Program-made: the position numbers and the translations under genes
Notes under the pieces: generated by a model
Databases searched by the model: none
What the model saw: the letters and a program-made list of their open reading frames with translations, nothing else
Told to the model about the DNA's origin: nothing
NCBI RefSeq assembly: GCF_039555335.1
Contig: NC_092646.1
Location: 34,749,380 to 34,813,379 of the forward strand
Direction of reading: 5' to 3'
DNA: 64,000 bases
Origin: Amphiura filiformis
Taxonomy: Eukaryota; Echinodermata; Ophiuroidea; Amphilepidida; Amphiuridae
Part shown: positions 1,044 through 61,249 of the stretch, one piece after another
Position numbering within the stretch: position 1 is the first letter of the stretch
Layout of the letters: each line of letters starts with the position of its first letter

Positions 1044-4000
1044 CATGTACCGCAGGGTCGTCTATGTCATTGCATATCTCACGGTAGGTTCTTGAGTTGA
1101 CGAGTTTATTAAAGGCTGGATTCCACCACTCATTGAATAGTGAATCCTTGCGCATCATCATGGCATCACCTAATAGGTTAATGAAGAAATGAATAAAACA
1201 CACACACAAGAAAAACAAAAAACAACGTTCTATCCAGTGACGGACAAGGTAAGGAATAGATTCAAATGTCATTATGATAGTCACTCCCAAGAATCCATCC
1301 TGGAGCTCATTTACCCGCTATGAGAAATCGACTTTCTACCTCGAAGTACGAAACTGCTGGAGAGATTTAGGGACCGTGACATGAAAATTATGGGTCAACG
1401 ACATAAAAAAGCATATAAACTCAATTTTCCCGGGAAAACTTTTCAGGTCCCCCTTAGGAGGGTCAAAACTTTTAAGGGCCTCTCATTTTGCATCAGGCCC
1501 CCTAACAAGTGTTTGTGAACGGTCCCTTAGTGTCAAAGCTTGAGCTAGTTTTATAAATCAGGAGGTTGCAAACACAGGACACGAGTTTCTGACTTTGACA
1601 CTTTGGAAATAAAGGAAACGATGAACAGATGTTAGTCACAAGTCAGGAACGCGTGAACTCGGGGAAATTTCTCAAAAATCAAGATGTTCTTCAGTAAATT
1701 AGACAAATCGCCCAAAGACTTTGTACACCGAACACAGCTGCCAAATTTTCATCACGAGTACCCGAGTTCCTAAATTGAGTTGATTATTCAGAGGTCGGGA
1801 ATTGGGAATTCAGGATCGTCGTCCTAACTTCCCGTGTTCATGTATACATCGGAAGTAGGAAGTAAGGAAGTCGGGAAATGATGTCCTAACTTTCCAAATT
1901 CCCTAAATATATATAGTTCGGTAATCATTTCTCAAATTCCTCACTTTCCAACTTGTTACAACCCTGGATGCTCGGACATAAGTTTCTGAGTAGCAAACCC
2001 CAAGCCTTGGACATAGGCATAGATCCCGGGGGATGGGGGATAAATTCCCCCCAATATTTTGCCTGGGGGATGGTCCATACAATCATCCCCCAATGTTGAC
2101 GCCTGTATGTGGGTTTCTGACCAAATTAACTTCATAGGATTAAAATGGCACAATTTTTTGCGCGCTTCGCGCATTTGTACCATTAACTTATTATGTCGCC
2201 AAAAGGTGCTGAATACACTATACTTCAAGAAATTTTTCCCAACCCCATCCCCCCATGTCAAAAAAAAAAAAAAAAATCCACGCCATTGGAACGAAACAGA
2301 GGATTGCGGTTGTAATGTTAAATGTTTCATTATATACAAATGTAGTTGGGTATATGAAGACTTTGAAATCTGAATGCAAAATAACTATTTTACTGTTTGA
2401 AACACAGCCATTTTGGTTCTTCAATCATTTCGACATGGTTGATACGGTAATGAGTGGGTTTTCATACTGCAAAACCAGATAAGTAAATAAGCAAGCACAC
2501 AATTATTTCACATTAATATAATACATGTCGTCGGGTGCATCACATACTGGTCTATCTTGAATTTTTGACTTTTTTGAGAAAATTGGTATATAGTTCTTTT
2601 TACGGAGCTCTTCCAATACAACAAATTACAGACCTCAATTTTTCCTAGATAATTAGTTATAAAATGTTAATTTAAACCATCTATGATTTTTTCAAAATAC
2701 GTATTTTCACATACTGATCTATCTCGAAAAAAACACGCATTTCTAGAAAATCGCAATTGAAAATCTTCGTATTAAGTTAATCTTTCTATAATTTAATTAG
2801 ACTATACATTTTCCTGAAAGAGGTTTTAAATTAAAGCATATGCTTAACAGATTTATTTATGTGGAATCTTTAATTAAATTTACATATGTAATATTTCTTA
2901 AAACTACACTTAAGTTGTAGTTCTGTATGTGAAATCGTCAATTTCCCGATATCGTATCGAAAGTGCATTACATACTGGTCTATCTCGAGATAGACCAGTA
3001 TGTGATGCGTCTAAAGTCACATCATTGTTCGCGAAATCGAGATAGCCCCCAAGATAGACCAGTATGAAATGCACTTTAAATATGATATCGGAAAATTAAC
3101 TATTTCACATACAGAACTACAACTTTAGCGTAGTTTTAAGCAATATTGCATACGTAAATATAATTCAAGATTCCACTTAAATAAATCTGTTAAGTATATG
3201 CTTTAATTTAAAACCACTTTCATTAAAATCCATAGTCCAATTAAATTATAGAATGGTTAACTTCTATACGAAGATTTTCAATTGCGATTTTCTCGAAATG
3301 CGTGTTTTTCGTGATAGACCAGTATGTGATGCGTCCGACGATGTATATTACCTCCCTGTAGGCATGGCGGCAATTCTTCGGCGACGTACAAAGAGCCATC
3401 ACGAGCAAATGGTAGTTCATTGCTGACAAAAATAGCATCTACCTGTAAAAATAAAAATAAAAAATAATAATAATAATAATAATAATAATAATAATAATAA
3501 TAATAATAATAATAATAATAATAATAATAATAGGCATAATAGTAATAACAATAATAACAATACTACTATACTACTACTACTGCTGCTGCTTCTTCATTGC
3601 TGGAATTAAATATCAAATGGTCATAATTGGCGGTCACTTCAAATCATCCCCAAGTCAACGAGGTTCAGGAATATCCTCTTGTTGTTAATTGTTGGTTAAC
3701 CCGCCACTTGAACAGGATTTAGCCAAAGCAAACAAAGACTAAAGGTATTTACTAATTCTATACATAAATATATTTAAGCTTATTATCCTCTTCAGCAATA
3801 GGATTAAAGATTGGTGTTTGACTGGACTAAAATGAGAAATATGTAGGACAAACATTAGGTACATTATGAATACAACCTTTATGCACATTTTACACTGTAA
3901 CTCGAAATACAATTTGCTGACTTTACGAGCGGTTTGAGATGGATGGTCACATATGTGGTCATTGGCAGGCAGACTGTTTGCGCAGAGTGTAACACAACTG

Positions 4001-59800: not shown

Positions 59801-61249
59801 TTAATTTGCATGTTTGCAGGTCTACATAATGAGCCCAAATCTATGGTTATGAACTTTGAAACTTTGATGGCTGCTAAAATTGGAAGAGGAAATCATTCCA
59901 TATTTTTATCATCGTAACTAAATTTAATAGATCTGCCTGTAATAAACTTAATTCTTTGCTACACAGAGTTCACGGGTCATATTGGATATTGCAGAAATAA
60001 AAAGGAAATTATCCAAGTTTCTTTTCATGAATCGAGTAGCCATGGAAACCTTTAAAAAAGTAATATATAGGGGCTAAATAAATCCAGGGAATATAAATCA
60101 TTCCCTGTCAACAATTGAAATATTATCTGTCACTGAATTGCAGCGAATTTCAGATATTTGCCTGTTCTGGACCATAGTCCGTTTAATTTTCTATAAAAAT
60201 ATTTGACATTGAATTTGTAACGTACACTCGTACGTACAGGGTTCCTTTTTCCTAGCCCTTTGCGCTTTAATAGTAGTGTTCCTTATTAATTAAAGCCTTA
60301 ATATACAATTTGGGTCAAATTTTAATGATCATTCTTTGCCAAAAAGTTAAACAGTATTATTAGTATTGTCAGAAAAGTTTTCTGGTCATTTTAAGCCAAA
60401 CTAATGAGGTAAAATGAAAGAAAACTTCTATCTCAGCCGCTTAATTGTGGTGTTTTAACGGGGGATTCAAACTTGCTCTGTTGTCCCTAAAAACGAATGA
60501 ATTTATTTGAATTCAATTACGTGCAAATTGGGACATCTGTGAACATTACAATTATGCCATAAAGTAAATAAATCTTAAAAGATCATACATTATAGCTTTA
60601 AATATCTCCGAAATTCTCGCGGGGTGCACACAATTCGCCGGCAGGCGGCATGTTGCCCTGGGTGTAGGTTGCCCACACCTGTTCTAGAAATAAATTGCCA
60701 TCTTTACTGTAGAGGAAATATAACTTGAAAAAACAGTGGCATGATCGACGGGAATTACATATAATAAACATATTTTTTCACCAGGTTCGCCGTCGCAAAT
60801 AATAACAAGTAGAAAAAGTGATCCCGCCTGGGAATCGAACCCATGACCTTAGGTTTACAAGACCCGTGCCTTGACTAAAGGACTTTCGTTTATAGGACTT
60901 CTTGATTGTTCCCTAAGTTTCCTACTAAAAGATCAAGCACAATAATTTATCAATAATATTATCATCATATCCTATGTTTTCAAAATGCTGATTATATTCA
61001 ACTGAGCAATGTATAAACAATATAAAGAACCAATTATTTACCTCCATATTTACTTTCATAACTTTCAGAACCATCACGACCACCAGAACCCGAGCCTTCC
61101 ACGTTGATATTAATAGGCGTATTCCTGTTGTAATTCAATACTGCCATTACCATTCCAGCCGCAGCTACAATCCCGACAATAAGTACCAGAATGCACAGGA
61201 GGACAAATACACTGCCTCCCTCATCTCGAGTTGATCTGCCTTCACCCAT
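50652..61249 (-). CDS. Gene D: most divergent paralogue, exons 7 and 8 fused (last exon not found)
   Basis: Exons 61042-61249, 57779-57884, 55516-55568, 54066-54179, 53683-53870, 52591-52668 and 50652-50868. The start chosen is ATG at 61249 (MGEGRSTRDEGG, then the shared anchor); an in-frame ATG at 61273 would add eight residues absent from the paralogues. Exon phases match A-C, but the 217-base last visible exon equals exons 7 plus 8 (91+126) with no intron. Domain landmarks persist: GYLIDVINA, GKWYDACS, EARLRSMKFTKA, AGWWANPSC, VDAICISNEL, MMRKDSLLDKWW, TYREICNDIDDPAVHG. The exon 2 cysteines are missing. A short terminal exon like that of B and C was not recognised between 47.2 and 50.6 kb. 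Confidence 0.82.
54430..54650. repeat. Foldback repeat in gene D intron 3
   Basis: Same family as the intron 2 elements of A and B, but in a different intron, so a separate insertion. The central GTGGTATACCAC is deleted. Confidence 0.7.
55825..56530 (-). mobile_element. LINE 3' fragment with CCHC tail, frameshifted
   Basis: On the minus strand three overlapping frames give GKSTWVMHVKNILLMHGFGH, YRRFLAKLRCSSHILKIETG, RVCDLCRDGNIEDEYHFVMV-C and a Lys/Arg tail. This is the C-terminal part of a non-LTR polyprotein. The 3' end AAATAAAATCTAAACTGAAA lies near 55830. Two frame changes make it dead. It sits between exons 2 and 3 of gene D. Confidence 0.75.
56950..57240. repeat. Foldback in gene D intron 2
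   Basis: GATCAAGCAAAATCAGTCGG AACTCGGAAATATT is mirrored at 57178-57215. The surrounding words (AGTTATGCATGATTATATGT, TACACTGCTCCAT) also occur without the foldback at 51868-51905. Confidence 0.7.
58117..58631. mobile_element. 515-bp TA-flanked MITE in gene D intron 1
   Basis: Ends CGAGCGGGTATCCAAAAC and CGAGGGGGTATCCAAAAG (right end reversed), continuing into TTTGAAATCACCCAGAAGTG, with TA on both sides as in Tc1/mariner elements. Confidence 0.8.
58960..59310. repeat. GC-rich CCGCCCC repeat piece in gene D intron 1
   Basis: Repeated GCCGCCCC words in the range 58970-59255 with CCCCGGGGG near both ends (58981 and 59264). Base composition is unlike the rest of the intron. Family unknown. Confidence 0.5.
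60822..60890 (-). repeat. tRNA-related sequence, probably a SINE head
   Basis: The minus strand holds GGTTCGATTCC (B box, 60831-60841) preceded by a loop CTTGTAA flanked by GGT/ACC and an A-box-like TTTAGTCAAGGCACGG. The 5' acceptor strand needed to pair with GGCGGGATC is missing, so it is not a working tRNA gene. Confidence 0.5.

Follow-up and report, generated by a model that had tools for sequence, protein, structure and literature searches.

Tandem genes for channel-free solute-binding-domain proteins in the ophiuroid Amphiura filiformis

In animals, the SBP_bac_3-type domain is known as part of glutamate-gated channels. Can an animal also carry this domain at the cell surface with neither a channel nor a transporter attached? 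The question is raised by a 64,000-nucleotide stretch of the Amphiura filiformis genome (NCBI RefSeq assembly GCF_039555335.1, contig NC_092646.1, positions 34,749,380 to 34,813,379 of the forward strand), hereafter called the window, whose own numbering is used below. Four paralogous genes (A to D) and an orphan first exon span positions 1044-61249, all on the minus strand. Based on gene models and sequence comparison, they are a real, selected and duplicated tandem family of channel-free proteins with a family-3 solute-binding domain and a putative membrane anchor.

Domain identity and absence of a channel

SBP_bac_3 (PF00497) is the sole Pfam family reported at E-values up to 10, and it is reported in all four models. 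The scores of B (31.5 bits), A (28.4 bits) and D (33.5 bits) exceed the gathering cut-off of 26.4; C is counted as a match only. In all these Pfam searches, few matches beyond about E 0.1 survive the HMMER filters. The assignment to the family-3 solute-binding fold, which an initial annotation of the window had proposed, is upheld by these matches. The identity of the genes and their domain as family-3 solute-binding-domain proteins is considered close to certain.

A custom profile hidden Markov model was built from six bacterial solute-binding proteins, three of them picked as hits. It gives 33.5 bits for B and 47.9 bits for D, and the best of 500 shuffles of each reached 6.8 and 2.4 bits, respectively. 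The only NCBIfam match is TIGR01096 (Lys/Arg/Orn-binding proteins), seen weakly in three of the four members with a best E-value of 1.9e-4; the score for B, 16.7 bits, is far under the NCBIfam cut-off of 256.35. With the 209-aa ectodomain as the tblastn query against plasmids (E up to 1), 259 records are matched by B and 110 by D, and the coverage is at least 80% in 74 and 22 of them. The best match of B is a bacterial ATP-binding cassette (ABC)-type binding protein with 26.5% identity over 95% of the ectodomain (E 7e-4). The best match of D, a protein of the same kind, shows 27.2% identity over 96% of the ectodomain (E 9e-6) and adjoins ABC permease and ATPase genes. Nine plasmid matches were inspected among the best 20 each of B and D, and an ABC permease gene directly adjoins eight of them; in Sinorhizobium, one gene lies between.

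The Protein Data Bank (PDB) search with B alone gives three matches with E no higher than 10, the best at 0.0027, and the search with the ectodomain profile gives 12 (best 0.0012). ArtJ (2pvu) and Glutamate receptor 3.2 (GLR3.2; 6ve8) are among the profile matches, whose best E-values are 0.0011-0.0012. No animal ionotropic glutamate receptor (iGluR) is found by name among these 12, of which one is GLR3.2. In PHROGs, all four members match a family of no known function (18.9 bits for B; best E 7.8e-4), and two further families are matched by one member each (E 0.4 and 0.97). Relatives were also sought in genome contigs and viral contigs, and none was confirmed by tblastn. Neither Rfam, at the gathering threshold, nor ARAGORN reports anything in the window.

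The whole domain of A-D is colinear with bacterial SBP_bac_3 proteins of the HisJ/ArgT/ArtJ type. Arg77, the Cys38-Cys45 pair (HisJ numbering) and the C-terminal RK...TY motif are common to both. The proteins of A-D differ from them in the N-terminal protein anchor, the introns, the extra cysteines, Ser in place of Asp161 and WW in the GTT loop. The lack of an ABC partner may be a further difference: a loose check of 10 of the 238 open reading frames (ORFs), confined to the window, finds no ABC component.

The absence of a channel can be located more precisely. The PDB alignment of the full-length receptor GLR3.4 is split in two (residues 517-599 and 698-764), and the break, where the channel lies, is near query residues 80-88 of the GLR3.2 stretch. 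When GLR3.2 is aligned with the animal profile, this point falls in VLLTLPGNPTNFDPNNL, inside exon 5. Exon 5 is continuous across this iGluR channel seam, without an intron. Since the seam lies within exon 5, a missed channel exon is ruled out. No Pfam match to Lig_chan or Lig_chan-Glu_bd is reported for models A-D at E up to 10, within the filter limit of HMMER, and the same search with the same limit reports no ANF_receptor (class C, mGluR-type flytrap; mGluR, metabotropic glutamate receptor). The proteins share the domain superfamily with the ligand-binding domain of iGluRs and GLRs, and GLR3.2 is among the best PDB profile matches. They differ in having no channel between the lobes, no ANF_receptor match and one membrane span. 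The uninterrupted exon 5 and the single span support the absence of a channel insert at the iGluR position. Two exon sizes seen here, 126 and 188 nt, are also given for vertebrate N-methyl-D-aspartate receptor genes in a passage of PMC2954789. This likeness is provisionally counted as a coincidence, because exon 5 (188 nt) spans the channel seam.

Each protein contains one hydrophobic stretch by hydropathy, encoded by exon 1, in line with the single anchor initially annotated. The layout is an N-terminal tail of 10-13 residues, a hydrophobic anchor of 25 residues, a stalk of about 40 residues and the ectodomain. The stalk, as read from the models, is rich in Gly, Pro and Asp. A type II single-pass topology with an extracellular C-terminal domain is likely.

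The ectodomain was also expected to be Cys-rich, and seven ectodomain Cys are indeed common to the four genes. D lacks Cys67 and Cys71, which A-C all have, and a tail Cys is present in B and C. C121 and C128 align with C38 and C45 of HisJ, and this pair is present in all four animal rows. C273 aligns with a Cys of 6 of 16 bacterial rows, and its likely partner C215 is two residues off theirs. There would be room for four or five disulfides.

Gene structure, selection and duplication

Exon pieces were found by tblastn, a motif scan and tblastx between gene regions, and the boundaries were set from the sequence. The motif scan places GYLIDV at four places on the minus strand. The anchor is in exon 1, KGYLIDV (RGYLIDV in D) in exon 3, and CQIAGKNC or a similar sequence in exon 4. 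Exon 5 holds ERLRSYKFSAP and LSGAKIGFL, with slight differences in C and D. Exon 7 contains VDAIFVSNE (VDAICISNE in D), exon 8 contains RKDSL...YREIC, and exon 9 is a short tail with one Cys. In the spliced models, intron and start phases are equal in every shared exon, and exons 3-6 have the same length in all four genes. The motifs, the conserved phases and the 333 residues of gene B, all given in the initial annotation, are reproduced by these models.

Gene A (9655..1044) has eight exons and a model of 317 aa. Exon 1, the membrane anchor, is at 9463..9655 and ends in phase 1. It is followed by exon 2 (7920..8028), exon 3 with KGYLIDV (6310..6362), exon 4 with CQISGKNC (5878..5991), exon 5 with ERLRSYKFSAP and LSGAKIGFL (4996..5183), exon 6 (4034..4111), exon 7 with VDAIFVSNE (3352..3442) and exon 8 with RKDSL...YREIC (1044..1169). 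No last exon (exon 9) of gene A is found within the window.

Gene B (32697..17708) is a complete model of nine exons and 333 aa. The anchor exon is at 32505..32697, and exons 2 to 8 are at 27194..27305, 25398..25450, 24966..25079, 23422..23609, 22495..22572, 21117..21207 and 19607..19732. Exon 9 (17708..17754) encodes the tail GSIPGRPASDTCVNL and a stop, and shows 93.6% DNA identity with the exon 9 region of gene C. The 3' flank of gene B contains an element of about 379 bp (17276-17654) with 35-nt terminal inverted repeats (97%), which has no match in C. The inner open frame of this element shows a sub-threshold Pfam match to TRAPPC8 (23.7 bits, cut-off 27.2, E 4e-5) and no PDB match. It is perhaps a captured host gene fragment.

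Gene C (45977..39157) also has nine exons. The anchor exon is at 45791..45977, and exons 2 to 6 are at 44376..44487, 43180..43232, 42508..42621, 41478..41665 and 40938..41015. Exon 7 (40636..40726) is followed by exon 8 (39886..40011) and exon 9 (39157..39203), the latter with the tail GSIPGRPASGTCLNL and a stop. AG acceptors and GT donors are used throughout the four genes, with exon 7 of C as the sole exception. Here, a (TAG)n run replaces the CAG/GTA acceptor and there is no in-phase AG, a probable defect. The model is 331 aa long if exon 7 begins one repeat codon later. Gene C may be defective, or the assembly may be wrong at this acceptor. Triplet repeats abut the exon 7 acceptor at 3446-3562 in A, 21211-21463 in B and 40720-40760 in C. 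Intron 1 of gene C contains an 88-bp minisatellite of about six copies (45038-45637).

Gene D (61249..50652) has seven exons that encode 321 aa, plus a candidate last exon. The anchor exon is at 61042..61249, and exons 2 to 6 are at 57779..57884, 55516..55568, 54066..54179, 53683..53870 and 52591..52668. Exon 7 (50652..50868) corresponds to exons 7 and 8 of A and B fused, with the intron absent; its 217 nt equal 91 + 126 nt. The candidate last exon (49503..49549) encodes GAISGITSDKLCLND and a stop. No other tail in this stretch has 15 residues and a Cys at position 12; the alignment score of the candidate is 27. The candidate is weak because at least one such tail is seen in 23 of 300 shuffles and 2 of 20 shuffles reached the score of 27.

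The coding sequences are under selection. The ratio of replacement to silent substitution rates (dN/dS) by NG86 is 0.28 for A-B, 0.33 for A-C and 0.34 for B-C (0.34-0.36 by YN00). Silent sites are saturated in the pairs with D, and the ratio is defined only for C-D, at 0.12 (NG86). Per site, silent changes outnumber replacement changes in all six gene pairs. For A-B, 15 of 221 silent sites and 15 of 730 replacement sites are changed (Fisher p 0.0014); the corresponding p values are 1.8e-6 for A-C, 2.6e-6 for B-C and below 1e-27 for the pairs with D.

The identity of exons was also compared with that of the 120 nt of intron behind each exon. Between B and C, the exons are 89.6% identical and the intron flanks 68.4%, with the exon higher in 8 of 8 cases. 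Between A and B, the values are 96.8% and 87.3% in sum, with exons 3 and 4 reversed. A and B are a segmental copy, introns included, with 89-94% identity in six blocks longer than 500 nt.

Exon 1 stands apart in comparisons with D. Changes at four-fold degenerate sites are fewer in exon 1 than in the ectodomain: 8/25 versus 33/49 for A-D (Fisher p 0.006), 7/24 versus 33/50 for B-D (p 0.006) and 7/25 versus 36/50 for C-D (p 0.0004). Among A, B and C, no difference is seen between exon 1 and the ectodomain (p 1, 0.14 and 0.23). The orphan exon (46564..47186) is a further copy of exon 1 and encodes the anchor. It is split by a near-perfect 425-bp foldback palindrome inserted at 46648-47072. The few four-fold changes against D, together with this orphan copy, suggest that the anchor exon has been converted or exchanged, or that its DNA is constrained.

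The constancy of the anchor bears on the question of whether the protein stays on the membrane. With a long signal peptide or a cut stalk, the product would be released as a soluble carrier or decoy. No hydrophobic stretch is seen other than the N-terminal one, which is followed by the Gly/Pro/Asp-rich stalk, as such a shed or secreted product would have. An anchor that is very constant against D, with the C-D values as the clearest case, argues against release, although gene conversion could explain this constancy. Release is judged improbable, and a protein that stays anchored is preferred.

Further elements are present in the window. A reverse transcriptase fragment is at 10263-11036 on the plus strand (RVT_1, 92.9 bits). 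A short open frame (RIKEHRKE...KIINKIQ) occurs at 16229-16950 as two inverted copies, which recall the end of a Penelope-like element and have no Pfam match above the cut-off. A short AGGGTT array, corresponding to the telomere-type unit TTAGGG, is at 63887-63925. The kilobase-sized introns, the reverse transcriptase fragment, the microsatellites and this array are in keeping with an animal host.

The binding cleft and possible functions

Four animal and 16 bacterial rows, nine of the latter chosen as hits, were aligned with HisJ as the guide. R77 of HisJ is taken here to be the contact for the ligand carboxylate, and D161 to hold the ligand amino group. The position of R77 is Arg in all 20 rows. 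This conserved Arg favours a binding cleft.

Several observations weigh against an anchored surface protein that binds a small ligand. At the position of D161, all four animal rows have Ser; among the 16 bacterial rows, 11 have Asp and five have Asn. S70 and S72 correspond to Leu and Gly in A-C and to Ala and Ser in D. The GTT loop reads GWW in B, C and D and RWW in A, so that T121 is replaced by Trp in all four. A different ligand may occupy the cleft, or no ligand at all. Besides, the choice between an anchor and a cleaved signal peptide was judged by hydropathy alone, and D has one extra Cys in the column of Phe251 of B, which would give an odd count of ectodomain Cys with the candidate tail.

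One hallmark of amino-acid binders, the Arg, is kept in the aligned rows and the others are changed. Probably the fold is kept and the amino-acid pocket has been rewritten. In the portion of PMC9602780 considered here, SBP_bac_3 members of 49 bacterial strains are predicted to bind amino acids only.

Alternatively, the fold would be kept only as a scaffold in adhesive or structural surface proteins, with the two invariant tryptophans occupying the cleft. The equivalent of Asp161 is lost and WW replaces TT of GTT in all four proteins, as would be expected of such a scaffold. The equivalent of Arg77 is kept in all four, however, and D departs from A-C at the pocket positions 70 and 72, as ligand-switching binders do. 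The empty scaffold is the main rival, and it is judged rather unlikely. As the Arg hallmark is kept and other pocket residues are changed, a binder of another carboxylate ligand seems the likeliest reading.

The overall best explanation is an anchored surface flytrap that binds a small ligand, for which our confidence stands at the midpoint. A small carboxylate ligand would dock on Arg165 (B numbering) between the two lobes, and the lobes would close on it. The closed state could then be relayed to a partner protein, which is proposed because the cytoplasmic tail would be too short for signalling alone. The proteins had been called surface binders or sensors from their layout. A function as surface binder is likely, and the odds that ligand binding is the function appear roughly balanced.

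Origin and related systems

Trees were made with 23 rows, and again without three long rows. In the best 23-row tree, the animal rows join GLR3.2 (85/77), a grouping flagged as long branches meeting. Once these long rows are left out, the animal rows branch from an unresolved fork of bacterial rows. Trees that hold the animal rows together with the 12 rows that have the Cys pair (p-AU 0.203) or with eight of the nine plasmid rows (p-AU 0.206) are not rejected.

The domain could have descended from an iGluR or a GLR-like receptor with the channel lost. The GLR3.2 pairing, with its long branches, points in this direction. So does the length before CWNN, where the animal rows have four more residues than the 16 bacterial rows and GLR3.2 aligns without a gap. 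Against this descent stand the lack of any reported Lig_chan or Lig_chan-Glu_bd match, the PDB matches, in which none of the 12 is a named animal iGluR and one is GLR3.2, and the HisJ-type Cys pair, which is present in the animal rows and not in GLR3.2. Such a descent is considered fairly doubtful.

The other possible source is a bacterial gene, which would have been transferred and would have gained introns, the anchor and duplications afterwards. Bacterial ABC binding proteins include full-length kin. Of the 16 bacterial rows, 12 have the HisJ-type Cys pair and 6 share the second Cys (PPCLQGG, against PECLGEG and the like); both counts are biased, as nine of these rows were chosen as hits. 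A transfer of SBP_bac_3 into gut fungi is on record in a passage of PMC11291939. The trees, however, do not nest the animal rows among the bacterial rows. A transfer is a real possibility, somewhat short of an even chance. It can be speculated that an animal lineage took a HisJ-type bacterial protein, tethered it to the cell surface by means of a common anchor exon and multiplied it into channel-free receptors with a rewritten pocket, which would sense metabolites beyond plain amino acids, possibly of microbial origin. This scenario as a whole is considered unlikely.

The initial annotation knew of no characterised animal protein with this layout. A literature search, covering titles and the starts of abstracts, gives no account of channel-free SBP_bac_3 proteins in animals among the matches listed, and does not contradict that statement. 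Databases may hold uncharacterised invertebrate proteins named after the SBP_bac_3 domain, in which case the family could already be annotated without having been described. The flytrap of the Schistosoma protein SmGBP is of the mGluR type, without the seven-transmembrane domain; we take this type to be another Pfam family, ANF_receptor. According to the part of PMC3206071 considered, SmGBP resembles A-D as an animal flytrap domain without its usual effector and with a possible N-terminal anchor. It differs in being an mGluR-type flytrap, and ANF_receptor is not reported for A-D. The genes of Neocallimastigomycota share with A-D the SBP_bac_3 domain in a eukaryote. They are fungal and are reported to come from separate transfers from Oscillospiraceae and Methanobacteriaceae, and the passage of PMC11291939 describes neither an anchor nor an array.

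With the Arg conserved and the pocket rewritten, straightforward binding and mutation experiments become feasible. A selected, duplicated family that displays this domain by itself at the cell surface would represent a class of small-molecule binder new to animals. It would also be a test case for whether bacterial nutrient-capture proteins have been reused by animals as receptors.

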